A DNA stretch of 64,000 bases from Mucilaginibacter rubeus. GTDB lineage: Bacteria > Bacteroidota > Bacteroidia > Sphingobacteriales > Sphingobacteriaceae. A program made the position numbers and the translations under genes. This document shows positions 2,391 through 60,596 of this stretch, one piece after another (within the stretch, counting starts at the first letter, position 1; every line of letters starts with the position of its first letter). The notes beneath the pieces are model-generated. The model was given only the letters and a program-made list of their open reading frames with translations. It was not told the DNA's origin and did not search any database. The stretch is taken from assembly GCF_014643835.1 (NCBI RefSeq), contig NZ_BMKD01000004.1:588560-652559 (forward strand). Direction: 5' to 3'.

Positions 2391-2421
2391 GATTCAAGAA
2401 GTCAAGAGTCAGGAAGCAAGA
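2391..2421. repeat. Heptad-type degenerate repeat, left arm of cassette
   Basis: This purine-rich tract is built from units of about 7 nt (AAGAGTC, AGGAAGC and similar). Positions 2400-2421 are the reverse complement of 2885-2906 with 20 of 22 bases matching, so the two form inverted arms around the four-helix-bundle pseudogene. It ends about 10 nt upstream of the start codon of the sigma-54 activator gene and so lies in that gene's leader. Confidence 0.7.
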
Positions 2422-2493
2422 TTTGAGCGAAGATTATCCTTATCTCAAATTAGCTCCTTAAATACATCTTGTCTTTTATTTTAGGCAATGCTT

Positions 2494-2862
2494 TCATTCA
2501 TCATCGGAGTTCAAAATGTACTCCCTAAAAGAGAATATCATTTTTTGAACTTCAACAACAAGGTCTAAACACTCCTTTAATTTATCTTTAGAGCCGTAGC
2601 CCCTTCTTTCACATATTAATAATTGGGTCTCCACTTCAAACGATGAAGTAAGAGACGTTGTTAAGAACTCGGCAAAATGCGCCTTAGTTCTCTTGCCTGA
2701 ACCTTCCGCTATGTTAGACGGAACTGAACAGGAACATCTGTTTAATTGGTCAATCAGGTTATATCTTTCCTCGATAGGTAATGCTTTACAATAGTCCTAA
2801 GTTAAATCAGTAAGGTCCATTGATTTTTGCCAAATCTTCAAGCTCTTAAAATTATGCCTCAT
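2494..2862 (-). pseudogene. Four-helix-bundle protein (S23/bAvd-like), broken by an in-frame TAG
   Basis: The minus strand carries a 123-codon frame that starts MRHNFKSLKIWQKSMDLTD and is interrupted by TAG at codon 22 (2799-2797). After it the frame continues with typical family signatures: ERYNLIDQLNRCS, SVPSNIAEGSGKR, a helix ending AEFLTTSLTSSFEVETQL, and a final helix up to TGA at 2494. This matches the four-helix-bundle family (TIGR02436), related to 23S rRNA intervening-sequence proteins and retroelement bAvd proteins. A one-base change (for example TAG from TAT) would restore a full-length protein of about 122 residues. The rest has no frameshift, so the lesion looks recent. Restart at an internal codon or a sequencing error remain possible. 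Confidence 0.75.
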
Positions 2863-2880
2863 CGTTACTTAGCTTTATTC

Positions 2881-2910
2881 TCTTTCTTGATTCCTGACTC
2901 TTAACTTCCT
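2881..2910. repeat. Heptad-type degenerate repeat, right arm of cassette
   Basis: This is the inverted partner of 2391-2421 (20 of 22 bases over 2885-2906 against 2400-2421). It ends 4 nt from the miaB stop codon on the minus strand. The two arms could pair in a transcript and bring the ends of the pseudogene cassette together. The same words (TTCCTGACTCT, CTTGACT) recur at 26935-27009. Confidence 0.7.
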
Positions 2911-2914
2911 TTGT

Positions 2915-4408
2915 CTATACCACTTTCCCTATCAACGTGGCCGTAGTGCTGCGTTCAATCAATACGTTTACATAATGCCCCGGCTTGTAATTTTCACCAA
3001 CCGGGAAAATCACCATCGCGTTTTGATCGCTGCGGCCGCAATAGTCTTTGTCTGATTTTTTGGAGAAACCTTCTATCAGTACACGTTCTACCCGGCCAAT
3101 GCGGGCCTGCATTCTGTAAAAAGAATATTCCTGTTGCTTGGCTACAATTTCGGTTAAGCGTTTTTGTTTTACCTCTTCCGGTATGTCATCGGCATAGCGT
3201 TTTGCCGCTAAGGTACCCGGCCTTTCGCTGTATTTAAACATGTAGGCAAAATCATACTTTACGTAATCCATCATGCTTACGGTATCCTTGTGCTCCTCAT
3301 CTGTTTCGCTGCAAAAACCGGTGATCACATCGGTTGAAATTGCACAATCCGGAATGATACGACGGATAGCGTCGATCCTATTGATGTACCATTCACGGTC
3401 ATAAGTGCGGTTCATCAGGTCAAGAATACGGCTGTTACCCGATTGTACCGGCAGGTGGATATAATTACAGATATTATCGTATTTATTGATGGCATACAAC
3501 ACCTCATCGGTAATATCCTTTGGATGTGAGGTTGAAAACCTAACCCGCAGATCAGGATCGATCAGTGCAACCATTTCCAACAGGTTAGCGAAGTTTACCC
3601 CTCCAACCTCCCCCAAGGGGAGGCTTTTGTCATTTTCAACGCCTGCTTCAATTTGCCCTTCTAAAGCCCTCTCCTTTGGAGAGGGTTGGGGAGAGGTCCA
3701 TTTATATGAATCTACATTCTGCCCTAATAAAGTAACCTCACGATAACCTCTGTCAAACAGGTCGCGGCATTCGGCAACTATCGATAAAGGGTCTCGGCTG
3801 CGCTCGCGGCCACGGGTAAAGGGTACCACGCAAAACGAGCACATGTTGTCGCACCCGCGCATAATGGATACAAATGCATTGATACCATTGCTGTTTAAGC
3901 GTACCGGGCTGATATCGGCATAAGTTTCCTCACGGGAGAGCAGCACGTTAACTGCCTTTTGACCATCATCTACCTGGTTAATGAGGTTCGGCAGATCGCG
4001 GTACGCATCCGGACCAACCACAACATCAACTAATTTTTCTTCTTCCAGGAATTTTGATTTCAGGCGTTCGGCCATACAGCCCAATACACCTACTACCAGG
4101 CCCGGATTTTTCACCTTGGCAACGGTAAACTCTTTTAAACGGTTGCGTACGCGTTGTTCGGCATTTTCGCGGATAGAACAGGTGTTGATGAAAATAACAT
4201 CGGCTACGCTATAGTCGGCAGTGGTTTCAAAACCGCTTTCGGCCAATATCGATGCAACTATCTCACTGTCAGAAAAATTCATGGCACAGCCGTAGCTTTC
4301 AATATAAAGCTTGCGGCCATTATTTTTAGCTGTTTCGGCTTTTAACATTAGCGCCTCACCCTGCCTGCTCTCATCATGTGTTTTATCCGGAATAAGCAAA
4401 TCCATCAT
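2915..4408 (-). CDS. miaB: tRNA-2-methylthio-N6-dimethylallyladenosine synthase MiaB
   Basis: This radical-SAM methylthiotransferase adds the 2-methylthio group to i6A37 of tRNAs reading UNN codons. The N-terminal UPF0004 domain carries the auxiliary-cluster cysteines Cys41, Cys77 and Cys111. The radical-SAM motif is C186-DNM-C190-SF-C193, and a TRAM domain sits at the C-terminus. At 497 residues it is longer than usual because residues about 238-270 are an in-frame insertion ([13 protein letters not shown] and onward) encoded by a palindromic repeat. The insertion lies in a loop between conserved LLGQNVDSY and [11 protein letters not shown], so the enzyme may tolerate it. The start may be Met1 or the adjacent Met2. 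It probably once formed one operon with the downstream sigma-54 activator and lptE. Confidence 0.95.
3599..3697. repeat. GC-rich palindromic element inserted in frame in miaB
   Basis: About 99 nt (33 codons) interrupt an otherwise collinear MiaB. The insert contains two nested palindromes: CCTCCCCCAAGGGGAGG near 3607-3623, and CCCTCTCC paired with GGAGAGGG near 3670-3686. These resemble the intergenic element at 15945-16051 (CCCTCCC paired with GGGGAGGG). The length is a multiple of three with no stop, so the gene stays open. The boundaries are estimated from where MiaB conservation stops and resumes and could be off by several codons. Confidence 0.75.
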
Positions 4409-4428
4409 TTATATAAAAAATTAGTTTG

Positions 4429-4436
4429 CAAAAATA
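4429..4436 (-). promoter_or_regulatory. Candidate -7 element for miaB
   Basis: The minus strand reads TATTTTTG, an exact match to the Bacteroidota -7 consensus TAnnTTTG, 20 nt upstream of the miaB start codon. No clear TTTG -33 element was found at 17-23 nt, so this is a moderate prediction. Confidence 0.4.
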
Positions 4437-4496
4437 AACAAAATTTAAATACCTAAATGACATATTGTCAGTATTAAATAAAATCTCATTTATTTC

Positions 4497-4532
4497 AAAA
4501 AAAAACGGGTAACACTTTCGCATTACCCGTTT
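4497..4532 (-). terminator. Rho-independent terminator of the secreted-repeat lipoprotein gene
   Basis: A 10-bp perfect stem (AAACGGGTAA with TTACCCGTTT) and a 10-nt loop are followed on the minus strand by a run of T. It lies 24 nt past the stop of the lipoprotein gene at 4556 and upstream of the miaB promoter region. Confidence 0.85.
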
Positions 4533-4555
4533 ATCCTATTCAAATAAGCCGTCAC

Positions 4556-5413
4556 TTACTGCGTTAAAGCTACAGTGGTGGTATTATTGATTTGCCAGAT
4601 AGCTGCACCGGGCGTAGGGAAGCTAACACCCTTGGTGCTACCTTTAACACCATTGTCCTGACCAAAATAGTAAAGCGGATGCCCTTTGTACACCAGTTGT
4701 GTTTGTCCGAATACGGTTATCACATCAAAGTCGGCTTTATTTAAAATAGAAGGAACACTTTGAACCGCCGTTACCGCATCGATTGGCCAGTTAGCATCAT
4801 GTGCCGCCACACCTGTGCTAAATTTATTTGTCTTAAACGTATCCTTGCTAAACAGGTACAAAGTACGGCCATTGGCATCTGTGATATATTGTGAATTTTC
4901 AGTACCGGCGATACCTTTGCTTGTGTATTGGTTACCATCATGCCCTATCAGTTGAGCGTAGGAAACCATAACTGTATAATCCGGCTTGGCTATAAACCAT
5001 GATTTGCCAACACCATCGCCGTTAACATCGGTAACAGCCACGTCTTTTGCATAATAATATAAAGGCCAGCCTTTATAGGTAGTTTGCTTATTCCCGTCGG
5101 CATTGGTGATAACGCCGAAGTCGGCAGCTGCCAGGCCGGTACCTATAGATGGGTTTTCTTTATAAAAGGCAGGCCAGGCTACAGCGCATCCTCCGGTACA
5201 AGTTGAAACGTTGGCCGCATCATCAGAGAACAGGTACAACGCACGACCGTTATTGTCTGTTATGATGCTACCAAAAGTTGCGTTTGAGGTAAGCTGTACG
5301 CCGGTAACAGCTTTAGGTGTGGTCGGGTTGTTGTCGTGATTTTTTTTGCACGATGCTGCTAATAAAGTTAAAACAATTGAGCCTGTCAGGGCTAAGTACA
5401 TTTTTGTTTTCAT
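4556..5413 (-). CDS. Lipoprotein with secreted repeats (PF03640 / COG4315 type)
   Basis: This 285-residue exported lipoprotein has a signal peptide and lipobox LAASC, giving lipidation at Cys22. It contains four related units with the hallmark ITDNNGRALYLFSDD or YKGWPLYYYAKD: a pair at about residues 45-130 and a second pair at about 165-265. This is the 'secreted repeat of unknown function' family; homologues sit in the envelope, and no reaction is established. Cysteines in TCTGGCAVAWPAF are typical. It stands alone, with its own terminator and a 254-nt divergent intergenic region upstream. A role in redox or surface binding has been suggested for relatives but cannot be read from this sequence. 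Confidence 0.85.
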   Translation of the reverse strand: MKTKMYLALTGSIVLTLLAASCKKNHDNNPTTPKAVTGVQLTSNATFGSIITDNNGRALYLFSDDAANVSTCTGGCAVAWPAFYKENPSIGTGLAAADFGVITNADGNKQTTYKGWPLYYYAKDVAVTDVNGDGVGKSWFIAKPDYTVMVSYAQLIGHDGNQYTSKGIAGTENSQYITDANGRTLYLFSKDTFKTNKFSTGVAAHDANWPIDAVTAVQSVPSILNKADFDVITVFGQTQLVYKGHPLYYFGQDNGVKGSTKGVSFPTPGAAIWQINNTTTVALTQ

Positions 5414-5667
5414 CGGGAGTCTATTAGTGTTAAAAAAAGGTTTTTATATAGACATAACGCCCTGAAATCCCCGAGGGTTGCTTAACAGTTAAACAAAACC
5501 ACAATATCAGTTAATCAACAACATGCAAACTACTACAGGCACCTTCAAAAACAATGAATTAAGTATGAGTTTTTATAAAAAAACAGCTTACCCGCCCATC
5601 AACTGTAACAAAAGTTACTAACTTGCTGTTAAAGCATAAAACACAGGTAAAAAGTAACAACCGGTAA

Positions 5668-7470
5668 ATGGCACTCAATTTTTTAAAGCACCAGTGGCAA
5701 AAAAGAACGTTCAAATTTGTGCTGATACCGGTTATAGTGATATTGCTGCTGGCTGTAGTAGTAAACAGGTATTGGTCGCCCATTTTGGCCGCCAAAGTAA
5801 AGGATGTGGTATTAAGCAGCAGTGATAGCCTTTACAAAGCAGATTTCTCGGATGCCGAGCTGCATATCCTTCAGGGCAAAATTATTATTTACAATATAAC
5901 CCTTAAGCCCGACACGACAGTTTATAATCAAAAAAAGCGTTTACGCCTGGTCCCCAATACACTGGTTGAGCTTAAGGTAAAACGGCTGGTGCTTAACCAT
6001 GTGCATCCATTTAAGCTCTATTTTCAAAAAAAGCTTAATATTGGGCAAATCATCCTGAATGAGCCGCGCCTGAATGTAAGCTACCAGCTAAACCATACCA
6101 AAGATACTGTTGTTAAAGATCGCCGTACGGCCTGGCAGCGAATTTCCAAAAGCTTGAAATCGATCCATATCGGAAGCATCCTGCTCAATGATGTTAACCT
6201 GAACTATGAAGATTACTCGGGCAACAAGGTGGCCATTTCCAAACTTAAAGAACTAAACTTAAGTGCAAACGACCTGCTCATTGATTCGGCTACGCAATAT
6301 GATAAATCGCGCCTGCTTTATTGCAAAGATATTATCACCGAATTGAACAATTACACCGGAGAAACACCAAGCGGCCTGTACACTTATAAGATCAGGCATC
6401 TTAAACTTTCCACCCTCACATCACGCCTAAATATCGAAGGGCTTGCTATGCAGCCAACTAAATCGGATGTTTTTTTTGATAAAAGCAAGAAAGACCGGCT
6501 GGGCTTACTGGCCGATTCTGTGCAGCTAAACAATTTTGACTACTTAAATTATCACAAATACCGCACTGTTTCTGCTTCAAGCCTAACCATGACAAATGGC
6601 AAGATAACGGCTTTCACCAACCCGGGTAAGAAACCAGATCCCACAACAGATAAGGTTAAAACGTTCCCCAATATGATGATCAAGAAATTAAATCTTGATT
6701 TAAGGATCGATACCATGAAAATCCGGCACGTTGATGTGATCTATAACGAGTTCAATAAAAAATCTCAAAAAACAGGTACCGTTACATTTAACAATACCAG
6801 CGGGCATATTTATAATATTACCAACAATCCATCGGCCATTGCCAAAAACAACATTACCCTTGTTGATCTGACAACCTATTTTATGAACCGCGGCCGGCTC
6901 GATGTGCAATTGAAATTTAATTTAAGCGATGCGGATGCCGCCTTCAGTTATAAGGGCACATTAGGACCAATGGAATTTGGAAAGCTAAATCCAGCTACCA
7001 TGCCTTTGGCTATGGTAAAAATGACATCGGGCAGCGTAAAAAAATTCAGCTTTGATATCCAGGCCAACAGCAAGGTATTTAAAGGTAAGGTTGATTTTTT
7101 ATATAACGATTTAAAGGTGATACTACTAAAAGCCGATACGGTCAATGATCGTTTCAAAAGAAAATCAATCATGTCGATATATGCCAACCTCTTCGTGATC
7201 AGGCGCAGTAATCCTGATGATAAAGGAAAGCTCACATCATCATTAGTGATCTATAAGCGGCCTAAAGATTCGCCATTTTTTAAAACTATCTGGAAAACCC
7301 TGCTTACAGGTATAAAACCATGTGTCGGCCTTGATGAAAAAAGCCAAAAAGCCACTAAAGACCGCATTGACGAACACCTCAAAAACAAGGAAGAACGCTT
7401 AAAAAACAAGGCACAGCGCCAGAAAAGAAAAGCAGAACGAAAAAAATTGATGGACCAGGGGAAGTTTTGA
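5668..7470 (+). CDS. AsmA/TamB-like membrane-anchored protein
   Basis: This 600-residue protein has an N-terminal membrane segment (about residues 16-34, FKFVLIPVIVILLLAVVV), then a long beta-rich region with the repeated pattern seen in AsmA-like proteins (LNDVNLNYEDYSG, LNIEGLAMQPT, GTLGPMEFGKLNP). The C-terminal 60 residues are highly charged (DRIDEHLKNKEERLKNKAQ) and probably form a helix. AsmA-like proteins bridge the periplasm and are linked to lipid transport, but this one has no experimentally named orthologue that I recognise. It is divergent from the lipoprotein gene. Its last ~30 bases, including the stop, are duplicated at about 7958-7992 downstream. Confidence 0.6.
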   Translation: MALNFLKHQWQKRTFKFVLIPVIVILLLAVVVNRYWSPILAAKVKDVVLSSSDSLYKADFSDAELHILQGKIIIYNITLKPDTTVYNQKKRLRLVPNTLVELKVKRLVLNHVHPFKLYFQKKLNIGQIILNEPRLNVSYQLNHTKDTVVKDRRTAWQRISKSLKSIHIGSILLNDVNLNYEDYSGNKVAISKLKELNLSANDLLIDSATQYDKSRLLYCKDIITELNNYTGETPSGLYTYKIRHLKLSTLTSRLNIEGLAMQPTKSDVFFDKSKKDRLGLLADSVQLNNFDYLNYHKYRTVSASSLTMTNGKITAFTNPGKKPDPTTDKVKTFPNMMIKKLNLDLRIDTMKIRHVDVIYNEFNKKSQKTGTVTFNNTSGHIYNITNNPSAIAKNNITLVDLTTYFMNRGRLDVQLKFNLSDADAAFSYKGTLGPMEFGKLNPATMPLAMVKMTSGSVKKFSFDIQANSKVFKGKVDFLYNDLKVILLKADTVNDRFKRKSIMSIYANLFVIRRSNPDDKGKLTSSLVIYKRPKDSPFFKTIWKTLLTGIKPCVGLDEKSQKATKDRIDEHLKNKEERLKNKAQRQKRKAERKKLMDQGKF

Positions 7471-7592
7471 TAAGGTATGAAAATAACATCTCCACCACGT
7501 CATTGCGAGGTACGAAGCAATCCCCCACGGGCAGAGTAGCTATGCAAGCAGCCCTGTAAAGTTCGCGATTGCTTCGTACCTCGCAATGACGT
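7438..7592. repeat. Direct repeat copy 1 containing a palindrome and the AsmA-like gene's 3' end
   Basis: This segment of about 150 bp recurs almost unchanged at 7958-8112. It covers the last codons and stop of the AsmA-like gene and then an imperfect palindrome in which CGTCATTGCGAGGTACGAAG pairs with its reverse complement ending at 7592. Palindromes of the CATTGCGAGG...CCTCGCAATG type are common dispersed repeats in many bacteria. Confidence 0.85.
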
Positions 7593-7854
7593 GATTGTAA
7601 ATTATTGATTATTAACGGTGTTTTTTCGATCGAAATTATAACATGGGCGTTGCCTGCGGCCCGGGCTTTCCGTTGCAAGTCCTCGCCTTTCCTGCCCACA
7701 ATCCCAACCCGCGCTGTGGGCTTTACACTGCAATCTCTAACGCGGCCTCCGCGCACCATCGCTAAAATTTATTTTACATGTCATTTCATTTTTTTTGGGT
7801 TCCACCTGATGGGTACCTCGCAATGACGTTTCTTTATCAGGTCCCGTATTTCAT
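7593..7854. other. Gene-free spacer between repeat copies
   Basis: I see no credible gene here. A plus-strand frame at 7605-7826 reads like translated repeat DNA: it is rich in P, R and F and matches nothing I know. The segment ends with a second copy of GTACCTCGCAATGACG (7812-7828) followed by a stretch to 7854 that is repeated at 8096-8138. Confidence 0.6.
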
Positions 7855-7956: not shown

Positions 7957-7957
7957 G

Positions 7958-8138: not shown

Positions 8139-8144
8139 TCAATT

Positions 8145-18860: not shown

Positions 18861-18981
18861 TGTCCGGAAGTCCGAAAGTCCGCATAAGTCCGAAAGATTT
18901 TCACGGAAAGACTTTTTATCTATAAAAATACAAATGTTTTTTTATGTCCGAAAGTCGGAAAGTCCGGAAGTCCGAAAGATT
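18861..18981. repeat. Degenerate ~8-nt tandem repeats (TCCGAAAG family)
   Basis: Two tracts (18861-18897 and 18945-18981) consist of variants of GTCCGAAA and GTCCGGAA repeated four or more times. The tracts at 19381-19460 are the reverse complement of the same words, giving inverted arms around the palindrome block. Confidence 0.8.
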
Positions 18982-19380: not shown

Positions 19381-19460
19381 ACTTTCGGACTTCCGGACTG
19401 CGGACTTCCCGACTAAAAATACTTTCGGACTTCCGGACTGCGGACTTCCCGACTAAAAAA
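19381..19460. repeat. Two-copy 40-bp tandem repeat
   Basis: Copies at 19381-19420 and 19421-19460 differ by one base. Each is made of the reverse complement of the 18861-18981 words (CTTTCGGACTTCCGGACT). The second copy ends one base before the stop codon of the transglycosylase gene. Confidence 0.92.
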
Positions 19461-26934: not shown

Positions 26935-27009
26935 CGTCTTGTTTCCTGACTCTAATGGTCTTGACTATATTTCTTTCTTGCTTCCTGACTCTTATAGTCC
27001 TGACTCTAA
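26935..27009. repeat. Heptad-type degenerate repeat filling the dut-TPR gap
   Basis: The whole gap between the dut stop (27010) and the TPR start (26933) is filled by variants of TTCCTGACTCTTA and CTTGACT. The same words form the arms at 2391-2421 and 2881-2910. Confidence 0.75.
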
Positions 27010-29298: not shown

Positions 29299-29333
29299 AG
29301 CTGAAAGCGGAATGCGCAAAGCTTGAAGCGAAC
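29299..29333. repeat. Heptad repeat, five units
   Basis: Exactly 35 nt made of five 7-nt units (first two AGCTGAA, AGCGGAA). The same word family, also as five units, lies at 46177-46211, 17 kb away. Confidence 0.75.
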
Positions 29334-33374: not shown

Positions 33375-33402
33375 TCTAATCTCCAGTCTCTAATCACTAA
33401 CC
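33375..33402. repeat. Heptad repeat, four units, abutting the kinase stop
   Basis: Exactly 28 nt in four 7-nt units; the first and third are both TCTAATC, the second TCCAGTC. It ends one base before the stop codon of the hybrid kinase gene. Confidence 0.75.
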
Positions 33403-33403: not shown

Positions 33404-36400
33404 CTACTGCTGCTGGTACCTGCTTAGTTTATCATAAAGCACCCTCGGGTCAAAGGGTTTAAGGATGTAGTCATTCATTCCGGCATCGTTAATCTCGCCC
33501 ATTTGGTTGCTGAGCATAGAGGCCGTAAGGGCAATGATAGGTAACTGCTGAAAATAAGTTTCTGTTTTAGCGCGGATAATGCCTGTAGCTTCCAAACCGC
33601 CCATTTCGGGCATGTGGATATCCATCAGCACTACGTTGTAGTTACGGTTGGTTTCAACCTTTTCAATAGCTTCAATGCCGTTTTCGGCAAAATCAGCACT
33701 GGCACCCCATTTCTTTAATATCTTATTAATGAGCAGGCGGTTAATCTGGTTGTCATCAACTACTAAAACATTTATTTTAAGTCCTTCTTCCACGTTATTA
33801 CTATTTCTGTTTGACTGGTAATCTCCTTTTTTAAAACCTATGGTAAACCAAAATGTTGATCCCTGTCCAGGTACGCTGTCAACATTTATGCGCGAGTCAT
33901 GCAGTTCAATTAACCGCTTGCTGATAGCGAGGCCAAGGCCGGTACCTCCAAACTTGCGTGTAGTATCCAGTTCGGCCTGCTTAAACTGCTCAAATATAGT
34001 CCCCAGTTTATTTGCAGCAATGCCTATGCCGGTATCAATTACTGCAAACCTGATGCGCACATCCTGTTCTGATTGCTGTATTACTTTCAGATCGATGGTA
34101 ACTCCGCCTTTTTCGGTAAATTTAATGGCATTACCAACAAGGTTTAGTAATATCTGGATCAGCCGGGTGCGGTCGCCCAAAATCACCTTGGGTATGGCCT
34201 CATCAATGCTTTTGCTAATATATATATTTTTTTCGGCGGCTTTATACTGCATGGAGCTTGTTATGCTTTGAACAAGTTCGGTTAAATCAACCCGCTCCTT
34301 CTCCAGCTCAACATTCCCGGTTTCGATCTTGGCAAAATCAAGCACATCATTGATCAGTGTCATCAGGTTTTCGGCCGAGAATTTCAGAATATTAAGGTTT
34401 TCCTTTTGCCCATCAAGCGGATCATCCTCCAGTAACAAATGCGACATACCAATTACGGCATTCAGCGGCGTACGGATCTCGTGGCTCATTACCGATATGA
34501 ACATATCTTTGGCGCGGCTCAGCTGTATAGCTTCCTCGCGGGCATTGATCAGTTCAATTTCAGCCTTCTTTTTAGCTGTTATGTCAATGATAACCTCAAT
34601 ATATTTATCAACCTCGCCTTTGCTGTTAATGATCACCGAGTTGATCACCGAGATCCACAACGGCTGCCTGTCTTTCCGGTAAACCAGCAGGTCAACCTCA
34701 AATGATTGTTTATTGCGGGATAACTCGCGTGCCTTTTGGATAATAGATACGTCAGTAAGTTCCCCTTTCAGCACATCACCAAGATGGTTGTCTTTTACAT
34801 CAAGCAAAGTATAGCCGGTTATTTGCTCAAAGGCTTTATTGACCCACTCAACCTTACCATCGCTGTTATTAATTACCACGCCACTGGCAGTACTGCTGGC
34901 CACTAACGAAAGCATGGTTACCTGTTCTTCGGTTTTCTTACGTTCGGTGATGTCAACCATGACAGCTATCTGCCTTTCAACACTACCTGTTTCATTAAAT
35001 AAAGGGCTATTTGACAGAAAGATCCAGATTGGGGTTTTGTCCTTTTTATAAACTTTTATTTCAACTTCATATCCCCGTTTTTCCTCTACAGCTTTCACTG
35101 CCGCGTTAAACACATTAAGGTCGGTATCTTCGCCAACCAGCATAGTGCCAAACATTTTACCACGCATTTCGTCAAGCGTATAACCTGTTATACTCTCCAG
35201 GGCTTCATTCATCCAGACCACCTCGCCCGTATTACTGCGGATCAGGATACCGCTTGGCGATTTGCGGGCCGCGAAGGACAGGATCTCCAGGTCCTGCTCA
35301 ATCTTTTTACGCTGGGTTATATCAATAATAACCCTGATAAATTTATCTGTTTGCCCGGCGCTGTCGCGGATCACCGAGTTAAATACCGAGATCCAAACCG
35401 GTTCACCATCTTTTTTATCTATCAGCAGGTCAACCTCGTAGGATACCTGGTTGCGGATGGCTTCATCCAGCCGTTTTACAGCTTCGGCATCTAGCGGTAC
35501 GCCTTTAAGCACATCGCGCAAACGCCGGTTTTCCACATCGGCCTGGCCGTAACCTGTTATCTGCTCAAAAGCTTCATTGGTCCATATTACCTCATCGGCC
35601 GCGTTGCTGATCACTACACCACTGGTAACTTTACTTGCAACCAATGATAGTAATGCCAGTTCATTGGCCACCTTTTTCTGATAGCTGATATCACGCCCGC
35701 TGGCAAACCACTTATCGTTTTTAAAAGTTACCGACCAGCTAATGCATTTAATATCGCCCGATGGTGTTATAATATTTGCTTCTATTTCAAAATGGCGTTG
35801 CTGCCTGCTCAACCCTTTTTTTAGGACCGACAGCGATTTTGCCTGTTCTTCTTCGAGGAAAAAACTCCAGATGGGTTTACCGATAACCTCAGTAGCTAAA
35901 TAACCCAAAACCGGTTTGGCAGAGCGGTTAATTTGCTCGATGTTAAAATCCCTGTCCATGATACAATGAATATCGGGCGAGCTGTCAAAAAGATCATGAA
36001 ATTCCTGGTGGCTTTTCAAATTTCGCTCCAGTTCAAGCTTCTGTTTCCGGAGCAGCAGGTGCGACATGACCTCATCGGCCAGCGTACGGAGCGCATCACG
36101 CTGTTCGGCTGTGAGCTTACGCGGCTTTGTATCAATCACGCATAATGAGCCAAGCCTGTGGCCGTCCGGATCAATCAATGGGGCGCCGGCATAAAAGCGT
36201 ACGCCCATTTCATTGGCTATGGGGTTATCCTTAAATTCCTCGTCCTCTTTAGAATCGGTTATTTCAAGAAGCGCCTCGGATTGGATGGTGCGGTTGCAAA
36301 AAGCGTCGGCGCGGGGTGTTTCCTCCACGTCGACGCCGTATGTTGATTTAAACCATTGCCTTTCGGCATCAAGCAGCGATATCAGCGCTGCCGGCACCTG

Positions 36401-36532
36401 GCATATGTAGGAGGCTAAACGCGTAATAGCGTCGTACTCCTTTTCGGGCATGGTATCCAAAACATTGTATGATTTAAGCGCTGCTAAGCGCTTATCTTCT
36501 ATGCTTGATGGATCTTCCTGCCTTAGTGTCAT
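33404..36532 (-). CDS. Hybrid histidine kinase (GAF, four PAS, HisKA, HATPase, receiver)
   Basis: This 1042-residue sensor appears soluble, with no membrane segment. In order: a GAF domain (about 1-165), four PAS units (about 175-290, 293-410, 413-532, 537-655), HisKA with phospho-acceptor His684 (SVMSHEIRTPLNAVIGM), a HATPase with Asn801 and glycine boxes (DTGIGIA, FGGTGLGLAI), and a C-terminal receiver with Asp971 (VVLMDIHMPEMGG). PAS units 2 and 4 are very similar to each other (GVVISN/GVVINN, AFEQITGY, DVLKG), indicating internal duplication. It lies 3 nt after glyA, so it is probably expressed from the glyA transcript. No partner regulator is nearby and the stimulus is unknown. Confidence 0.93.
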   Translation of the reverse strand: MTLRQEDPSSIEDKRLAALKSYNVLDTMPEKEYDAITRLASYICQVPAALISLLDAERQWFKSTYGVDVEETPRADAFCNRTIQSEALLEITDSKEDEEFKDNPIANEMGVRFYAGAPLIDPDGHRLGSLCVIDTKPRKLTAEQRDALRTLADEVMSHLLLRKQKLELERNLKSHQEFHDLFDSSPDIHCIMDRDFNIEQINRSAKPVLGYLATEVIGKPIWSFFLEEEQAKSLSVLKKGLSRQQRHFEIEANIITPSGDIKCISWSVTFKNDKWFASGRDISYQKKVANELALLSLVASKVTSGVVISNAADEVIWTNEAFEQITGYGQADVENRRLRDVLKGVPLDAEAVKRLDEAIRNQVSYEVDLLIDKKDGEPVWISVFNSVIRDSAGQTDKFIRVIIDITQRKKIEQDLEILSFAARKSPSGILIRSNTGEVVWMNEALESITGYTLDEMRGKMFGTMLVGEDTDLNVFNAAVKAVEEKRGYEVEIKVYKKDKTPIWIFLSNSPLFNETGSVERQIAVMVDITERKKTEEQVTMLSLVASSTASGVVINNSDGKVEWVNKAFEQITGYTLLDVKDNHLGDVLKGELTDVSIIQKARELSRNKQSFEVDLLVYRKDRQPLWISVINSVIINSKGEVDKYIEVIIDITAKKKAEIELINAREEAIQLSRAKDMFISVMSHEIRTPLNAVIGMSHLLLEDDPLDGQKENLNILKFSAENLMTLINDVLDFAKIETGNVELEKERVDLTELVQSITSSMQYKAAEKNIYISKSIDEAIPKVILGDRTRLIQILLNLVGNAIKFTEKGGVTIDLKVIQQSEQDVRIRFAVIDTGIGIAANKLGTIFEQFKQAELDTTRKFGGTGLGLAISKRLIELHDSRINVDSVPGQGSTFWFTIGFKKGDYQSNRNSNNVEEGLKINVLVVDDNQINRLLINKILKKWGASADFAENGIEAIEKVETNRNYNVVLMDIHMPEMGGLEATGIIRAKTETYFQQLPIIALTASMLSNQMGEINDAGMNDYILKPFDPRVLYDKLSRYQQQ

Positions 36533-36535: not shown

Positions 36536-37822
36536 TTACTCTGAGTCCTTATCTCTGTACAACGGGAAGTCGTACATTAACTTGTGAACCCTTTTACGGA
36601 TTTTCTTGATAGAATGTTCATTTTCAGGATCAGAAATTACAGCATCTATCAATTCAACAATATGCTCCATATGTTTTTCCTTCATCCCGCGGGTAGTGAT
36701 AGCCGCAGTGCCTACACGGATGCCTGAAGTTACAAATGGCGATTTATCATCATATGGCACCATGTTTTTATTCACGGTGATATCGGCAGTTACCAAAGCA
36801 TTTTCGGCAGCTTTACCTGTAATATTTTTATTACGAAGATCGATCAGCATTAAGTGGTTATCCGTACCGCCAGATATGATCTGGTAACCCAGTTTCACAA
36901 ATGCTTCGGCCATAGCGTCGGCATTCTTCTTAACCTGCACAATGTATTTCATGTAGTTTTCGCTCAAAGCCTCACCAAAAGCAACTGCTTTAGCGGCAAT
37001 GATATGCTCCAACGGACCACCCTGTGTACCAGGGAATACGGCCATATCCAATAATGACGACATCATCCTGATTTCGCCTTTAGGGGTTTTGATACCAAAT
37101 GGGTTTTCAAAATCCTTACCCATCATAATTAAACCACCACGCGGACCACGTAAAGTTTTGTGGGTAGTAGTAGTAACAATATGGCAATGCGGAAGCGGAT
37201 CGGTCAATAAACCGCGGGCAATTAAACCTGCAGGGTGCGAGATATCGGCCAATACCAGCGCACCAACTTCATCAGCTACCTTACGGATAAACTCATAATC
37301 CCAATCGCGTGAGTAAGCCGACGCGCCTGCAATGATCAGTTTCGGTTTTTCGCGCAGGGCTACCTCTTTAAGCTGGTCATAATCAACCAGGCCGGTTTCT
37401 TTTTTAACCCCATAAAAATGAGGTTCATACAATTTGCCCGAAAAGTTAACAGGCGAACCGTGTGTTAAGTGACCACCATGTGAAAGGTCAAAACCTAATA
37501 TTTTATCGCCCGGCTGCAATACAGCAAGCATAACTGCCGCGTTTGCCTGTGCACCAGAATGTGGTTGTACGTTAACCCACTCGGCGTTAAACAATTGCTT
37601 GGCGCGTTCAATAGCTATGGTTTCAATTTCGTCAACCACCTGGCAGCCGCCGTAATAGCGTTTGCCCGGTAAACCTTCGGCATACTTGTTGGTTGCAACA
37701 GAACCTGCAGCTTCCATAACCTGCCTGCTTACAAAATTCTCAGATGCTATAAGCTCAATGCCTTCTTCCTGGCGTTGCTGTTCTTCATCCAATAGCTTAA
37801 ATATCAGTTTGTCTCTTTTCAT
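36536..37822 (-). CDS. glyA: Serine hydroxymethyltransferase
   Basis: GlyA interconverts serine and glycine with tetrahydrofolate, the main source of one-carbon units. The PLP-binding lysine is Lys222 in [14 protein letters not shown]. Conserved [18 protein letters not shown] and QPHSGAQAN are present. The 428-residue length is normal. Its stop lies 3 nt from the kinase start on the same strand. Upstream is a heptad repeat. Confidence 0.97.
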
Positions 37823-37860: not shown

Positions 37861-37897
37861 AGATTTGAGATGTGAGATGTGAGATTTGAGATAAGAG
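37861..37897. repeat. Heptad repeat upstream of glyA
   Basis: The tract is built from 7-nt units TTTGAGA and TGTGAGA in near-perfect register for four units. The inverted word family occurs at 38195-38221 and in short form near 37993-38011, so these arms bracket the small unknown ORF at 38014-38259. Confidence 0.75.
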
Positions 37898-38013: not shown

Positions 38014-38259
38014 TCACCTATTGAGAAATCTGGATTTTATTTTTTCCATCACTTTATCATGTGCAATGCCCTCACCCCGATCAAGTTGTTCTTCGGCTTT
38101 TTGAATAGCCTGCTTAATTCCTTTTGGAACATCAGTCCAAAAATCAGCCTCCGATAAACTAACCGATGGCCTCCTCTTTTTTAAAACACTTGGCTGTCTC
38201 AAATCTAATGTCTCATATCTCTTTTGGCGAAATCCAAAAGTTATTATAACCCAATCCAA
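38014..38259 (-). CDS. Small protein, possibly a truncated antitoxin-like fragment
   Basis: An 81-codon frame overlaps the 3' end of scpA by 47 nt. Its first ~28 codons are encoded by scpA and repeat DNA and are probably not original. The remainder (DFWTDVPKGIKQAIQKAEEQ, LDRGEGIAHDKVMEKIKS) resembles the C-terminal half of small addiction-module antitoxins, where an amphipathic helix precedes an H-x-x-V motif. No toxin gene is visible on either side. It may be a remnant left between inverted repeat arms, or a short gene with a non-ATG start. Function is not assigned. Confidence 0.35.
   Translation of the reverse strand: MDWVIITFGFRQKRYETLDLRQPSVLKKRRPSVSLSEADFWTDVPKGIKQAIQKAEEQLDRGEGIAHDKVMEKIKSRFLNR
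38195..38221. repeat. Heptad repeat overlapping the scpA stop codon
   Basis: Units TCTCAAA, TCTAATG and TCTCATA follow each other in exact 7-nt register. The scpA stop (TGA on the minus strand, 38215-38213) lies inside the tract, so the repeat supplies the end of that gene. Confidence 0.75.
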
Positions 38260-46113: not shown

Positions 46114-46211
46114 GAAAGCCAAAAGCTGAAGGCACAAAGCCTAAAGCCGCTTAGCTTGATTATCAATATTTATATAAGCTGAAAGCAGAACGCACAAAGT
46201 TTAAAGCTAAT
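46114..46211. repeat. Two heptad tracts (AGCTGAA family) in direct orientation
   Basis: Positions 46177-46211 are exactly five 7-nt units starting AGCTGAA, AGCAGAA. Positions 46114-46150 are a shorter, less regular copy. The same family lies at 29299-29333. Confidence 0.75.
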
Positions 46212-55061: not shown

Positions 55062-55172
55062 TTACTCGTCGTCCTCATCTTCGTTAACAGTCAATTCATA
55101 TGGACTTGCATAAAAGCAGCCGACCAGGATCAGCAACCCTATAACTACCAAATAAGCATACTCAAAATTCAT
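55062..55172 (-). CDS. Candidate 36-aa membrane protein with acidic tail
   Basis: A short frame starts at ATG 55172 and encodes one hydrophobic helix (YLVVIGLLILVGCFY) followed by a tail ending NEDEDDE. It lies in the 250-nt gap between the LpxH-like and DinB genes, on the same strand. The order Met, helix, then acidic cytosolic or periplasmic tail is typical of real small membrane proteins, and no other explanation is evident, but no family was recognised. Confidence 0.4.
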   Translation of the reverse strand: MNFEYAYLVVIGLLILVGCFYASPYELTVNEDEDDE

Positions 55173-55242
55173 CACAAAGATTTTTACAAATGTCTGAAAT
55201 TTAACATTATCCTACTGTTAAGACTACATTAAATATAAAAGG

Positions 55243-55776: not shown

Positions 55777-56468
55777 AAAAGTAAAGTTAACTCTTTTAAA
55801 TGAGCAATCTGCACGGGCACATCCTGAGGTTTTTCCGCCTTAAAAGGATTAAAATAAATAGCGTCCATTCCAAAATTAAGCGCCCCGCGGATATCAGCTT
55901 CGATGCTGTCGCCGATCATCACACTTTCTTCTTTTAATGCCCCGGCCAGGTCAAGCGCGTGTTGAAATATGGCTTTGTCCGGCTTGTTAACGCCAACATC
56001 TTCGGAGATGATAATGTTCTGAAAATATTTGGCCAGGTCGGTCCCCGCGATTTTTATCCGCGTTGAATCTTTAAACCCGTTCGAGATCAGGTGCAGGGTA
56101 TATTTTGATTGCAGGTATTGCAGTGTTTCGTGCGCATGCGGAAACAGGTTGGTTTTGGTGGGGCAAAGCTTTACGTAAGCATCCTCAAAATCAAGCGGCA
56201 TCAGGTCGGGATGCAAACCAAGATCAGTAAAGGTTGATTTGAAACGGGCCTCCCGCAGTTCATCTTTGGTGATCTCGCCGATATGATACTGTGCCCAAAG
56301 GCGGTGATTGTTACGGGTATAAGTTTCGATGAACAACTCGGCAGATTGCAGGCCTATTTCATCGAGCTGGTGAATAACATATAACTCATGCAGGGCCTCT
56401 TCGGCATTTTTATCGAAATCCCAGATGGTATGGTCGAGATCAAAGAAGATGTGTTTGTATTGTTTCAT
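55773..56468 (-). CDS. HAD hydrolase, YjjG-type noncanonical pyrimidine nucleotidase
   Basis: This 231-residue HAD-family phosphatase shows the nucleophile motif FDLDHTIWDFD, motif II in LHLISNGF, and motif III/IV in NIIISEDVGVNKPD and MIGDSIEADIRGA. The YjjG family removes phosphate from noncanonical pyrimidine nucleotides, protecting DNA. It is coupled to the DinB gene; upstream is the AATCCGA-type repeat. Confidence 0.9.
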   Translation of the reverse strand: MKQYKHIFFDLDHTIWDFDKNAEEALHELYVIHQLDEIGLQSAELFIETYTRNNHRLWAQYHIGEITKDELREARFKSTFTDLGLHPDLMPLDFEDAYVKLCPTKTNLFPHAHETLQYLQSKYTLHLISNGFKDSTRIKIAGTDLAKYFQNIIISEDVGVNKPDKAIFQHALDLAGALKEESVMIGDSIEADIRGALNFGMDAIYFNPFKAEKPQDVPVQIAHLKELTLLL

Positions 56469-56469
56469 G

Positions 56470-56615
56470 TCGGATTTCGGATGTTCGATTTCGATTTTTT
56501 TTCCCTGCTTAAAAATTCAAAATTAAGAATTTCAATATTACTAAATCCGAAATCCCAATTCCGAAATTCGAAATCAAAATAAATCCGAAATCGAACATTC
56601 GAAATCCGAAATCAA
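56470..56615. repeat. Heptad-type repeat with inverted arms filling the upp-HAD gap
   Basis: The first tract (56470-56497, GATTTCG words) is the reverse complement of 56582-56607 with about one insertion and one substitution. A third tract (56541-56578, CCGAAATC words) lies between. The whole gap between the two genes is repeat, and ends one base before the upp stop. Confidence 0.8.
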
Positions 56616-57260
56616 CTACACTTTTTCCCCAAATGCCAGGTCGCCCGCATCACCCAAACCAGGTACAATATAAGCTTTGCTGGTCATTTCGTCGTCAACG
56701 GCGCAGAGCCAGAGTTTGGCTTTTGGGAGATTGGCTTTAACATGCGCCACGCCTTCGGTGCTTGCAATTACAGCGGCAATGTGCAGCTCCTTTATTTTAT
56801 ACTGAGCCATCAACTCCTTACAAACCGATACAATACTTTGCCCGGTAGCCAGCATGGTATCGCACAAAATAAAGATCTTATCATCAAGGTTAGGGGTTGA
56901 GATATGATCCACCTGGATCAAAAAGCTGCCGTTACGCTTCACCTTGCGATAAGCTGTGATAAATGCAGAGGGCGACCGGTCGAAAAACTGCATAAAACCC
57001 TGGTGAAAAGGCAGGCCGGCGCGCAATATAATACCCAGCACCGGTTCATCGGCCGGTATATTAACACTGGCTGTACCCAAGGGGGTTTGAACTTCTTTGG
57101 TTTCGTAATGTAATGATTTACTCAACTCATAAGCCAGTATGGCTCCTAACCTTTCCTGGTTCTGCCTGAAACGTGCCTTATCCTGCTGAATAACGGCATC
57201 CCGTAATTCGGCAAGGAACTGGTTGGCAATGGTATTGGTTTTATTGAGGATAAAAATCAT
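56616..57260 (-). CDS. upp: Uracil phosphoribosyltransferase
   Basis: Upp makes UMP from uracil and PRPP in pyrimidine salvage. The PRPP-binding FILCDTMLATGQSI, the PADEPVLGIILRAGLPF segment and C-terminal GLGDAGDLAFGEK fit the family. The 214-residue length is normal. It is divergent from the GNAT-MarR operon. Confidence 0.95.
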   Translation of the reverse strand: MIFILNKTNTIANQFLAELRDAVIQQDKARFRQNQERLGAILAYELSKSLHYETKEVQTPLGTASVNIPADEPVLGIILRAGLPFHQGFMQFFDRSPSAFITAYRKVKRNGSFLIQVDHISTPNLDDKIFILCDTMLATGQSIVSVCKELMAQYKIKELHIAAVIASTEGVAHVKANLPKAKLWLCAVDDEMTSKAYIVPGLGDAGDLAFGEKV

Positions 57261-57342
57261 GCTTAAATTTAAGCGTTTTTGAGCAATAGTATCACTATTT
57301 GTTTATTAAATGTCATACCGCACCATGGGAAGGATAATAAAT

Positions 57343-57374
57343 TTTGAATATATGTAGTTAACTACGTAGATTTG
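57343..57374 (+). promoter_or_regulatory. Full-consensus promoter of the GNAT-MarR operon with overlapping operator
   Basis: TTTG (57343-57346), a 20-nt spacer and TAGATTTG (57367-57374) match the Bacteroidota promoter exactly. The start codon is 18 nt beyond. The spacer contains the perfect 12-bp palindrome GTAGTTAACTAC (57354-57365), extended to 18 bp with one mismatched pair (57351-57368), so a bound dimer would cover the -7 element. The obvious candidate binder is the MarR protein encoded second in the operon. Confidence 0.75.
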
Positions 57375-57392
57375 TACATAAATATTAAAGTT

Positions 57393-57890
57393 ATGGATAC
57401 TACACCTGTTATCAGCTCACTCAACAATACTTATTGCCAGCAGATCATTGATATCATTTTACCAATTCAGCAAATTGAATTTAATGTGCCTATCACGCTT
57501 GAAGCCCAGCCCGACCTGCTTGATATTGAAACCAATTACCACCAAACCGGCGGAGATTTTTGGGGAGCGATATACAACGAACAACTTGTTGGCACCATTG
57601 CACTTATTGCTTTTGATAATAATTCGGCGGCCATACGCAAAATGTTTGTACTTAAAGAATACCGGGGAAAGGAGCTGGGCATCGCGCAGTTACTGCTCAA
57701 TAATCTTATTGATTATTGCAAACAAAACAACATTGCCCACATTTATTTAGGCACTGTTGAGATGCTGAAAGCGGCCCATCGGTTTTATGAAAAAAATGGC
57801 TTTACCCGCCTTGCCAAACAGGATTTACCTGAATCATTCCCACTTATGGCTGCAGATACCATTTTTTATGAGTTACATTTGAACAATTAA
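57393..57890 (+). CDS. GNAT-family N-acetyltransferase
   Basis: This protein of 165 residues (from ATG 57393) transfers an acetyl group from acetyl-CoA to an unidentified amine. The acetyl-CoA-binding core is visible in IRKMFVLKEYRGKELGIAQL (the RGKELG pyrophosphate loop), and C-terminal HRFYEKNGFTRL is typical. Seven codons upstream in the open frame overlap the promoter and are rejected. The MarR gene starts 7 nt after its stop. Confidence 0.88.
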   Translation: MDTTPVISSLNNTYCQQIIDIILPIQQIEFNVPITLEAQPDLLDIETNYHQTGGDFWGAIYNEQLVGTIALIAFDNNSAAIRKMFVLKEYRGKELGIAQLLLNNLIDYCKQNNIAHIYLGTVEMLKAAHRFYEKNGFTRLAKQDLPESFPLMAADTIFYELHLNN

Positions 57891-57897
57891 CAGCGGT

Positions 57898-58380
57898 ATG
57901 ATGAATGTTATTGACGAATCGGGAATTTTAGCAATTTCAACAAGGTTGCAGCGCCTGGCCGAGCAGCTGCGCAAGGAAGGCGTACTTATTTATAAAGCCA
58001 GCAATATTGATTTTGAACCCAAATGGTTCCCCGTTATTTACACTTTACATTTTAAGCCCCTTTTAAGCGTGGTGGAAATCGCTGCCGAAATTGGTTATAC
58101 CCATCCTTCCACCATCAGTCTGTTAAAAGAATTGGAAAAAGAGAAATTGATCCGATCAAAAAAGGATAAGGCCGATGAAAGGAAGCGTCTTATCATGTTA
58201 ACAACAAAAGGCCAGGAACTTATTGTGCGCATGAAACCTGTTTGGGAAATCATGAAAGCGGCCGCCGCGGAAATTGCCGACACCCAAAACAACCTGATGA
58301 AGGCTATTATTGAAGCCGAAGAGAAAATAAAGCAGCAGAGTTTTTTGGATAGGGCGTTACGTTTAAAGGCAGAAATGTAA
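57898..58380 (+). CDS. MarR-family transcriptional regulator
   Basis: This 160-residue dimeric winged-helix regulator has a DNA-binding helix pair (EIAAEIGYTHPSTISLLKEL) and wing (KDKADERKRLIMLTTKGQ). MarR proteins bind palindromes overlapping their own promoters and release on binding a small molecule. Such a palindrome sits in this operon's promoter, so autoregulation with control of the acetyltransferase is likely. The start may be either of two adjacent ATGs. Confidence 0.9.
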   Translation: MMNVIDESGILAISTRLQRLAEQLRKEGVLIYKASNIDFEPKWFPVIYTLHFKPLLSVVEIAAEIGYTHPSTISLLKELEKEKLIRSKKDKADERKRLIMLTTKGQELIVRMKPVWEIMKAAAAEIADTQNNLMKAIIEAEEKIKQQSFLDRALRLKAEM

Positions 58381-58486
58381 TTTATCACCCCAAATCCAAC
58401 AATGTTGACATACGGTTGTCATTACCATGTACTTATTTTGATTTGCAAACCCTGTTTCTGGATTATTTGTATTTTTACATAACAAC

Positions 58487-60511
58487 ATGGATTTTCAATT
58501 AACATCTCAATATAAACCAACCGGCGACCAGCCTGAAGCTATAAGGCAGTTGGTTGAAGGTATCAACAACGGCGACCCATATCAAACCCTTTTGGGGGTT
58601 ACCGGATCGGGCAAAACCTTTACGGTTGCCAATATTATAGCACAAACGCAAAAACCTACGCTGATCCTGAGCCACAACAAAACATTAGCGGCACAGCTTT
58701 ATGGCGAGTTTAAGCAGTTTTTCCCCGAAAACGCGGTGAACTACTTTGTGTCTTACTATGACTATTATCAGCCGGAGGCTTTCATCCCTACCACCAACAC
58801 CTACATTGAAAAGGATTTGCAAATAAACGAGGAGATAGAAAAGCTTCGTTTACGTACTACTTCGGCTTTAATGTCGGGCAGGCGCGATGTGATCGTGGTA
58901 TCGTCTATATCCTGCATTTACGGTATGGGTAACCCCGATGATTTTGCCGACTCGGTTTTCAAATTTGCCGTAGGTACCCGTATCAGCAGGAATGCTTTTT
59001 TACATCGCCTGGTCGAAATTTTATACGCCCGCACCACTGCCGATTTTAAACGAGGAACATTCAGGGTTAAGGGTGATACCGTCGATATTTTTCCGGCTTA
59101 CCTGGATTATGCCTACCGCATCTCCTTTTTTGGCGACGATATTGAAGAGTTAAGCGCCTTTGATATCGGCACCGGTAAAACCATCGAAAAAATGACACAC
59201 ATGGTGGTTTATCCGGCCAACCTGTATGTTGCCCCCCGAGAGCGTTTCCTGCAATCTATCTGGGCTATACAGGAAGAGCTGGAAACCCGCAAAAAACAGT
59301 TTATTGATGACGGCCGTTTCCTGGAAGCCAAACGGCTGGAAGAAAGGGTTAATTACGACCTGGAAATGATCCGCGAGTTGGGTTACTGTTCGGGCATCGA
59401 GAACTACTCCCGCTTTTTTGACGGGCGCAAGCCTGGTGCAAGGCCGTTCTGCTTGCTCGATTATTTCCCGGAAGATTACCTGATGGTGATTGACGAAAGT
59501 CACGTAACTGTTCCGCAGATCAGGGCGATGTATGGAGGTGACCGTTCGCGTAAAATCTCGCTGGTTGATTATGGCTTCCGCCTGCCGGCAGCTTTGGATA
59601 ACCGTCCGCTTAATTTCCAGGAGTTTGAAAACCTTGCCCCGCAAACCGTTTATGTAAGCGCTACTCCCGGCGATTTTGAACTTGAAAAATCAGGTGGTGT
59701 GGTGGTAGAACAGGTAATCCGCCCTACCGGTTTGCTTGATCCCGTTATTGACGTTCGCCCGGTAATAAATCAGGTGGATGACTTGCTTGACGAAGTAGAT
59801 AAAACAATTAAAAAGGGCGACCGCGTACTGGTAACCACCCTCACCAAACGCATGGCCGAGGAACTGGCCAAATACATGGACAGGCTGGGCATTAAATGCC
59901 GCTACATCCACTCAGAAGTAAAAACACTGCAGCGCGTGGAAATTTTACGTGGCCTGCGCCTTGGCGAATTTGACGTATTAATAGGGATCAACTTACTGCG
60001 TGAAGGATTGGATTTACCTGAAGTATCCTTAGTGGCTATTTTGGATGCTGATAAAGAAGGGTTCTTGCGATCAGAGCGTTCGTTGATCCAAACCATTGGC
60101 CGTGCTGCCCGTAATGACCGTGGCCGTGTGATCATGTATGCTGATACCATAACCGATTCGATGCAGATCACGATGGATGAAACCAACCGCCGCCGCGAAA
60201 TTCAGATTGCATATAACACACAACATGGCATTACACCGCTAACGGTTGGCAAAACGCGCGAGGAAATTATGGAGCAAACATCAGTGGTCGACTTTAAGGG
60301 CGGTGTACAGCAGGCTTATGTAGAAACTGATACCCTAACCCTTGCCGCCGATCCGATAGTTCAGTATATGACCAAAGCCGACCTGAAAAAATCAATCGAC
60401 AACACCAAAAAAGATATGCTTGCCGCCGCCAAAAACATGGATTTCCTGCTGGCTGCCAAACTACGCGACGAAATGTTTGCTTTGGAAAAAATGATGGAGG
60501 AGAAGTTTTAA
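58487..60511 (+). CDS. uvrB: Excinuclease ABC subunit B
   Basis: UvrB is the helicase-like damage verifier of nucleotide excision repair. Walker A GVTGSGKT is at residues 37-44, the beta-hairpin YYDYYQPEAFIP at about 92-103, and the C-terminal UVR domain (LLAAKLRDEMFALEKMM) binds UvrC. The 674-residue length is normal. It stands alone after the MarR gene; its stop merges with the start of a hairpin repeat. Confidence 0.97.
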   Translation: MDFQLTSQYKPTGDQPEAIRQLVEGINNGDPYQTLLGVTGSGKTFTVANIIAQTQKPTLILSHNKTLAAQLYGEFKQFFPENAVNYFVSYYDYYQPEAFIPTTNTYIEKDLQINEEIEKLRLRTTSALMSGRRDVIVVSSISCIYGMGNPDDFADSVFKFAVGTRISRNAFLHRLVEILYARTTADFKRGTFRVKGDTVDIFPAYLDYAYRISFFGDDIEELSAFDIGTGKTIEKMTHMVVYPANLYVAPRERFLQSIWAIQEELETRKKQFIDDGRFLEAKRLEERVNYDLEMIRELGYCSGIENYSRFFDGRKPGARPFCLLDYFPEDYLMVIDESHVTVPQIRAMYGGDRSRKISLVDYGFRLPAALDNRPLNFQEFENLAPQTVYVSATPGDFELEKSGGVVVEQVIRPTGLLDPVIDVRPVINQVDDLLDEVDKTIKKGDRVLVTTLTKRMAEELAKYMDRLGIKCRYIHSEVKTLQRVEILRGLRLGEFDVLIGINLLREGLDLPEVSLVAILDADKEGFLRSERSLIQTIGRAARNDRGRVIMYADTITDSMQITMDETNRRREIQIAYNTQHGITPLTVGKTREEIMEQTSVVDFKGGVQQAYVETDTLTLAADPIVQYMTKADLKKSIDNTKKDMLAAAKNMDFLLAAKLRDEMFALEKMMEEKF

Positions 60512-60596
60512 TTTGAAAATTTATTGATTTGAAGATTTGAAAACGACAGTCCCCACATTTTCAAACCTTCAAATTGCTTTATCTTCAAATTAAAAC
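60510..60596. repeat. Imperfect long hairpin of ~8-nt words after uvrB
   Basis: The first tract (60510-60544, ATTTGAAG and ATTTGAAA words) is largely the reverse complement of the second (60556-60595), with a loop of about 11 nt. It would form a long hairpin at the 3' end of the uvrB mRNA and may act as a transcript end or stabiliser. Confidence 0.7.

Follow-up and report, generated by a model that had tools for sequence, protein, structure and literature searches.

S23 proteins (PF05635, "23S rRNA intervening sequence protein") are four-helix bundles whose function is not established, and bacterial heptamer repeats, including the short tandemly repeated repetitive (STRR) sequences of cyanobacteria, are a second long-standing puzzle of function. 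In the passages available of PMC4990558, the S23 gene of an intervening sequence (IVS) of 23S rRNA lies in the loop of a long stem made of terminal inverted repeats, and the Xanthomonas S23 protein is a homopentameric toroid. STRR units, as described in the available part of PMC2670836, are 7-nt, tandem, intergenic and hairpin-forming, with a report of them between hupS and hupL, and no partner protein is named there. The TAACTGA repeats (PMC4679880) and the Xanthomonas/Nostoc GGGAATC repeats (PMC4692102) are also heptamers near the ends of open reading frames (ORFs); in the accessible portions, each report treats one word family, the two propose an RNA-level role or a G-quadruplex, and the neighbours of the GGGAATC repeats are mostly co-directional, while the terms S23 and four helix are absent from both main texts. 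Here we report that heptamer repeats and S23 belong together. The starting point was a stretch of 64,000 nt from Mucilaginibacter rubeus (contig NZ_BMKD01000004.1, positions 588,560 to 652,559; hereafter the window), in which tracts of tandem 7–8-nt units occupy intergenic DNA. We did not meet the link between S23 and heptamer arms in the literature among the matches listed, which consist of abstract starts and paper passages with thin coverage of subscription journals.

A preliminary description of the window had listed the tracts, and inspection of the sequence confirmed short tandem units at every one of these positions. Most tracts are arms of inverted repeats, i.e. a G-rich arm, a loop and a complementary C-rich arm. 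We propose, with a probability of roughly 0.6 and on the basis of sequence comparison, that they are the arms of a widespread intercistronic S23 hairpin element and that pentameric S23 would bind one unit per subunit. In the full form of the element, found in a minority of copies, the loop is an S23 gene oriented like both neighbours, and the first arm starts at the upstream stop codon. In the window, the tracts at 2391–2910 and the S23 pseudogene between them form one such element; elsewhere the tracts are solo hairpins, single arms or direct tracts. The parts of this element are as follows:

2881–2910, minus strand: G-rich arm, directly after the stop of a MiaB-type gene (2915–4408, minus strand; Pfam), with the same word as the arms of loci L176, L185, L188 and L264.
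2500–2862, minus strand: S23 (PF05635) pseudogene with one in-frame stop early in the frame, 83% by tblastn to the S23 of L185.
2391–2421, minus strand: C-rich arm, just upstream of a sigma-54 activator gene (1125–2381, minus strand; Pfam).

The window was compared with G001, the nearest genome compared (94–97% identity in the main aligned blocks), and with SMC90, a complete Mucilaginibacter genome of 8.1 Mb and the best named relative. At the site of window 2382–2921, G001 lacks the S23 element and a different, CCCCCTAAAGGGGGAG-type hairpin fills the gap between flanks that are 97–98% identical; SMC90 carries there a solo hairpin with another word.

A starting search with PF05635 against seven genomes gave 38 matches, 30 of which were retrieved, and the extension to the genus brought 97 Mucilaginibacter S23 loci under analysis, two of them without a usable S23 ORF (n = 95). 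These loci were taken from the top of match lists and are thus the clearest members, with no random draw, several of them lying at a shared orthologous site. Matched arms (score of at least 26) enclose 84 of the 95 S23 genes, compared to 28/1042 for genes regardless of kind and 6/227 for those of 80–160 aa; arms with a periodicity of at least 0.5 were found for 79/95 S23 genes and 7/1042 control genes. We regard the association between arms and S23 as firm. It recalls repetitive extragenic palindromes (REP), dispersed hairpins with a cognate protein family, RAYT, which is a tyrosine transposase. The likeness lies in the cognate pairing of hairpin and protein; the partner here is PF05635 and not a Y1 transposase. 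The best-scoring control genes include two RAYT-like transposases, recognized by eye (SMC90 L136:4388–4936 and L130:6974–7579), each with its own long aperiodic hairpin. The S23 elements consist, like the rRNA IVS, of an S23-type ORF within terminal inverted repeats that form a stem, solo copies being devoid of the ORF. They differ from the IVS, as far as the passages of PMC4990558 describe it, in lying between protein-coding cistrons of mRNA rather than within 23S rRNA, in having arms built from tandem 7–8-nt units with a clade-specific word and in the existence of scattered solo copies. As for STRR, tandem 7-nt units occur in intergenic DNA at many loci; the difference from the available account (PMC2670836) is that S23 is paired with the arms, cyanobacterial plasmids included. 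S23 is present in 60 of 61 Mucilaginibacter genomes.

Words and unit numbers were analysed in 88 loci with an arm score of at least 24, representing 39 genomic sites. In this set, arm words correspond closely to the S23 tree. For S23 pairs located at different sites, the word is shared by 18/18 pairs at 80–90% protein identity, 47/64 at 70–80%, 25/95 at 60–70% and 43/3485 below 60%, and S23 distance follows arm word with a Mantel r of 0.49 (0 of 2000 permutations). The S23 genes that different species have at a single site can also belong to unrelated clades, each with a word of its own (L256 and L278 versus L173 and nine others; L200 versus L214 and five others). At the scpA site, L029 has an S23 gene within GAGATTAG-word arms and that word is present without S23 in L018, L038, L039 and L046; between scpA and glyA, the hairpins of related species display at least five different words. 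Altogether, the clade–word pairing and the site comparisons indicate that the S23 gene and its word behave as one unit and that sites are reused. The view that each locus has a different word thus holds only in part: the same words turn up at numerous non-orthologous positions in numerous species and track S23 clades, and the AGATNTG word of window 37861 has many further occurrences in other species and in another family. A word specific for an S23 family suggests that a ring-shaped S23 protein may read these repeats. The element could alternatively be mobile at the DNA level, with terminal inverted repeats and with S23 as a DNA-binding mobility protein or an Avd-like reverse-transcriptase adaptor. 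The differences between close relatives at the same site, the co-occurrence of clade and word at unrelated sites and a distant similarity of S23 to Avd (E 2.7e-5, which does not reach the cut-off of the Avd model) all fit this explanation. We nevertheless hold it to be unlikely, since Pfam gave just PF05635 and a weak bAvd match, with no catalytic domain, and since two features of the Mucilaginibacter elements, an orientation almost always shared with both neighbours and a first arm beginning at the stop codon (see below), point to RNA.

The second regularity concerns the number of units. The longest in-phase dinucleotide run in the G-rich arms of S23 elements spans five units in 41/88 cases, four in 24, six in 8 and more in 2 (five in shuffled arms: 1.7), and the C-rich arms have a run of exactly five in 34/88. 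When runs are anchored on RG, the G-rich arms give exactly five in 41/88, four in 8 and six in 9, where 0.8 is expected for five. Solo 5' arms behave in the same way, with exactly five units in 39 of 62, four in 15, six in 6 and none above (five in shuffled: 1.1). S23 relatives in the PDB, 2gsc and 2rld, contain five chains per entry. Taken with these entries and with the homopentameric toroid of Xanthomonas, the five-unit mode leads us to infer one repeat unit per S23 subunit. With words that match and a prevailing number of units identical to that of subunits, the repeats and S23 would both gain a concrete and cheaply testable mechanism.

The position of the S23 elements is also constrained. 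The S23 gene shares its orientation with the gene upstream in 84/88 cases and with the gene downstream in 84/86, whereas co-directional gaps make up 288/438 of all intergenic gaps in SMC90. In 73/80 elements, the first arm starts at most 10 nt from the stop codon of the preceding gene. The idea that tracts abut stop or start codons therefore holds for the S23-bearing elements, in the form of proximity to the stop. The order of units in one arm is mirrored in the other in 73/80 S23 elements (identity 0.85 in register and 0.72 one unit off), which suggests that the hairpin as such is of importance too. Seven S23 sites are metH–metF, sdhA–sdhB, purK–purE, purN–purH, argC–argD, a carbamoylputrescine amidase/agmatine deiminase pair and miaB/sigma-54 activator, the neighbours being identified by eye except for the last site, that of the window, which was checked with Pfam.

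Hairpins are not restricted to S23 loci, and S23-bearing copies are a minority among them. In a survey of 490 intergenic regions, 100 had an inverted repeat with a score of at least 28, against 4 in shuffled controls, and in the 76 strongest ones (score of at least 32) the identity of the arms at lags 7 and 14 is about 0.42 vs 0.29. These inverted repeats are commonest between convergent genes (38/92), intermediate between tandem genes (41/203 and 13/76) and rarest between divergent ones (8/119). The survey was pooled with 800 kb of SMC90 and 400 kb of G012, yielding 62 clearly periodic and 112 clearly aperiodic hairpins after exclusion of those between thresholds. In 59/62 periodic hairpins, G exceeds C in the 5' arm, the mean G/(G+C) being 0.74 in the periodic and 0.54 in the aperiodic hairpins, which is a better formulation than the purine richness on one strand noted initially; as this polarity is strand-symmetric, it is a property of the hairpin and not of the chromosome. 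Five solo hairpins have predicted RNA folds with z from −2.4 to −7.1. With this result and the avoidance of divergent pairs by strong inverted repeats, the suggestion of structural RNA ends made in the preliminary description came close to the outcome; as a whole, its interpretation is partly supported.

The orientation bias is also what one would expect if solo hairpins were terminators or 3'-end stabilizers that genes gain and lose, S23 being a passenger that survives in loops. This explanation would accommodate the large excess of solo copies over S23-bearing ones and a convergent site at which some species have a classical A/T-flanked GC hairpin in place of the heptad hairpin of others. 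The classical pattern of an intrinsic terminator (a GC stem followed by a T run) was, however, found in just 3 of 33 periodic SMC90 hairpins and 0/5 in G012, the five units and the word–clade match are left unexplained, and S23 elements lie within sdhA–sdhB and purK–purE, where termination would do harm. We find the explanation somewhat unlikely overall, and the location of the S23 elements between operon-type genes leads us to reject a terminator-only reading for them.

The periodicity itself becomes clear when many loci are pooled. In the intergenic DNA of the window alone, autocorrelation gives a weak signal (z = 1.4 at lag 7 and 2.7 at lag 14), so that it was set aside as a deciding test, and an in-phase-run test gave p < 0.05 for 6 of 16 window stretches, meaning that several tracts are not significant singly. 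In the intergenic DNA of 45 Mucilaginibacter loci including the window (70 kb), we counted 64 period-7 arrays against 4–15 in five dinucleotide shuffles, i.e. a ~7-fold excess, with a further excess at 14 and 21 (harmonics), 8, 16 and 9 nt. No Rfam family matched the window at gathering thresholds. Local copying with divergence of the unit, as first envisaged, does occur: a 17-nt unit indel distinguishes the window from G001, and a nearly pure AGATATG array of ~20 units is found in G018 (contig 50, 12771–12925). Such changes and the long pure arrays are what heptamer arrays would undergo by neutral slippage where intergenic DNA tolerates it, but slippage fails to account for the mirrored inverted arms, the five-unit peak, the G-first polarity, the shared vocabulary, the S23 association, the match of word and S23 or the operon position, and as a full explanation it is very improbable.

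Beyond Mucilaginibacter, S23 occurs in 116 of 148 sampled genomes of Bacteroidota. Among 30 loci from across this phylum, 17 have arms scoring at least 26 and 15 have five units, with a co-directional gene upstream in 26/27 and downstream in 24/29. For plasmids, 16 of 30 matching records were retrieved (14 from Cyanobacteria, and Azospirillum and Gemmatirosa); 15 of their 16 S23 loci have matched arms, mostly of heptamers or octamers. An S23 locus of Nostoc has GGGAGTA-like arms, which resemble the named cyanobacterial STRR words; the words of Mucilaginibacter differ. STRR, named early on as the nearest relative, thus proved a good lead, as cyanobacterial S23 genes too have flanking heptamer arms. 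The class of operon elements is hence found in several phyla, Bacteroidota and Cyanobacteria, plus Azospirillum and Gemmatirosa. In cyanobacterial plasmids, S23 elements were also noticed inside CRISPR–Cas operons, according to the annotation: cas6–S23–cas4 twice and cas10–S23–cmr3 once (L313, L321 and L325).

TRAP is an 11-mer RNA-binding ring that reads triplets 2–3 nt apart, and the S23 ring might similarly read evenly spaced repeats, one per subunit. In the mechanism that we propose, the S23 pentamer would bind the single-stranded arm of an operon mRNA, as TRAP binds its triplets, and this binding would compete with the arm–arm hairpin. Such competition could control how the operon transcript and that of S23 itself are processed, how stable they are or how they are coupled. 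The S23-bearing IVS of 23S rRNA, an element excised by RNase III, may be the rRNA form of the same element, and solo hairpins may be derivatives without the gene or sites acted on in trans. More tentatively, and with some doubt on our side, S23 proteins could be clade-specific readers of a five-unit repeat code, each pentamer binding five units of 7 or 8 nt in single-stranded mRNA. They would then make up a pan-bacterial intercistronic system, either for control or selfish, with the rRNA IVS and STRR-type repeats as special or relic forms.

Several observations weigh against the proposal of an S23-read intercistronic element. Eleven of the 95 S23 genes have no clear arms. When the 88 loci are collapsed to 51 site–word combinations, the peak is blunter, five units (20) being still the mode and four reaching 17; plasmid arms often exceed five units, with exactly five in 6/16, two of those not significant, and long pure heptamer arrays exist. 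Co-direction is looser on plasmids (upstream 11/14 and downstream 10/14 annotated cyanobacterial loci), and 14 of the 62 solo hairpins lie between convergent genes, an arrangement that leaves no room for operon coupling. Taken as a whole, the S23 RNA of L029 folds no better than shuffled sequence (z −1.3), although the arms do pair in the prediction. The whole SMC90 genome contains 5 S23 genes, compared to 20 solo periodic hairpins in a 0.8-Mb sample, a tenth of the genome. The words of these solo copies speak for the proposal at a sharing of at least 0.4, where 14 of the 20 match S23 arms, vs 8.75% in shuffles and 1/57 aperiodic hairpins, but at a looser sharing of 0.25 the match (14/20) does not stand out from shuffles (44%). 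Finally, AGATNTG solo copies are not commoner in the 6 genomes that have a matching S23 (median 8) than in the 55 others (median 7; p 0.36), a matching S23 being defined by at least 78% identity to the L221 protein and genomes with a 67% relative being counted among the others. That solo copies depend on a matching S23 in the same genome is thus unsupported for AGATNTG, the one word tested, suggesting that solos outlive the matching S23 or spread without it. In G046 (249 kb), the one S23-free genome sampled, a periodic hairpin was found in 1 of 121 intergenic regions, that one not heptad-like, compared to 8/163 in G031, 20/438 in SMC90 and 4/226 in G012; this near-lack is no more than suggestive of a link with S23 (Fisher p 0.11 against the pooled genomes, and 0.026 if the odd hairpin is left uncounted).

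The other tracts of the window are the following:

18861–18981, plus strand: G-rich tracts of the 8-nt word GTCCGAAA, which is also that of S23 arms L250, L262, L267 and L269; absent in G001.
19381–19460, minus strand: inverted tract of the GTCCGAAA word with a 40-nt duplication, paired with 18861–18981 by word only.
26935–27009, minus strand: direct tract of the GAGTCAGGA / GTCAAGA word, filling the gap between dUTPase and TPR genes (Pfam); one mismatch to G001, word retained in SMC90.
29299–29333, plus strand: single arm of the AAGCTGA / AAGCGGA word with five in-phase GC; absent in G001.
33375–33402, minus strand: single G-rich arm of the TTAGTGATTAGAG word, after the stop of gene 33404–36532 (minus strand); conserved in G001.
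37861–37897, plus strand: G-rich arm of the AGATNTG word with six in-phase AG, upstream of glyA (SHMT gene 36536–37822, minus strand).
38195–38221, minus strand: inverted arm of the AGATNTG word, at the 3' end of scpA.
46114–46211, plus strand: two direct tracts of the AAGCTGA word; conserved in G001.
56470–56615, no strand: solo hairpin of the GATTTCG word, spanning the whole gap of two co-directional genes; conserved in G001; RNA fold z −5.7.
60510–60596, no strand: solo hairpin of the 8-nt word AATTTGAA, at a stop codon; conserved in G001; RNA fold z −5.1.

The tracts at 26935, 29299, 33375 and 46114 have no clear inverted partner, and the last of these falls outside the hairpin explanation. 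Between the tracts at 18861–18981 and 19381–19460, the strongest inverted repeat is another repeat. Near 7496–7593, the window has a perfect inverted repeat of the CGTCATTGCGAGGTACGAAGCAATC type, and hairpins of this type are common and dispersed in the sample of SMC90. At the SMC90 site corresponding to window 60505–60680 (L141, near 1755–2348), a Uma2 gene lies within ATGTGCAG-word arms. Uma2 was considered as a second partner family and rejected: 1 of 9 loci with a readable gene is flanked by arms (2 further loci have no readable gene), so the single SMC90 case looks incidental.

The interval between scpA and glyA, both named from Pfam matches, is an insertion hot spot. In the window, an ORF that looks antitoxin-like by eye, with no NCBIfam match, is located between the AGATNTG arms (38014–38190); G001 has there an apparent toxin–antitoxin pair (L001), and SMC90 a 4-kb cassette (L013:5886–9848) with AraC-type and aldo/keto-reductase-type genes, identified by eye.

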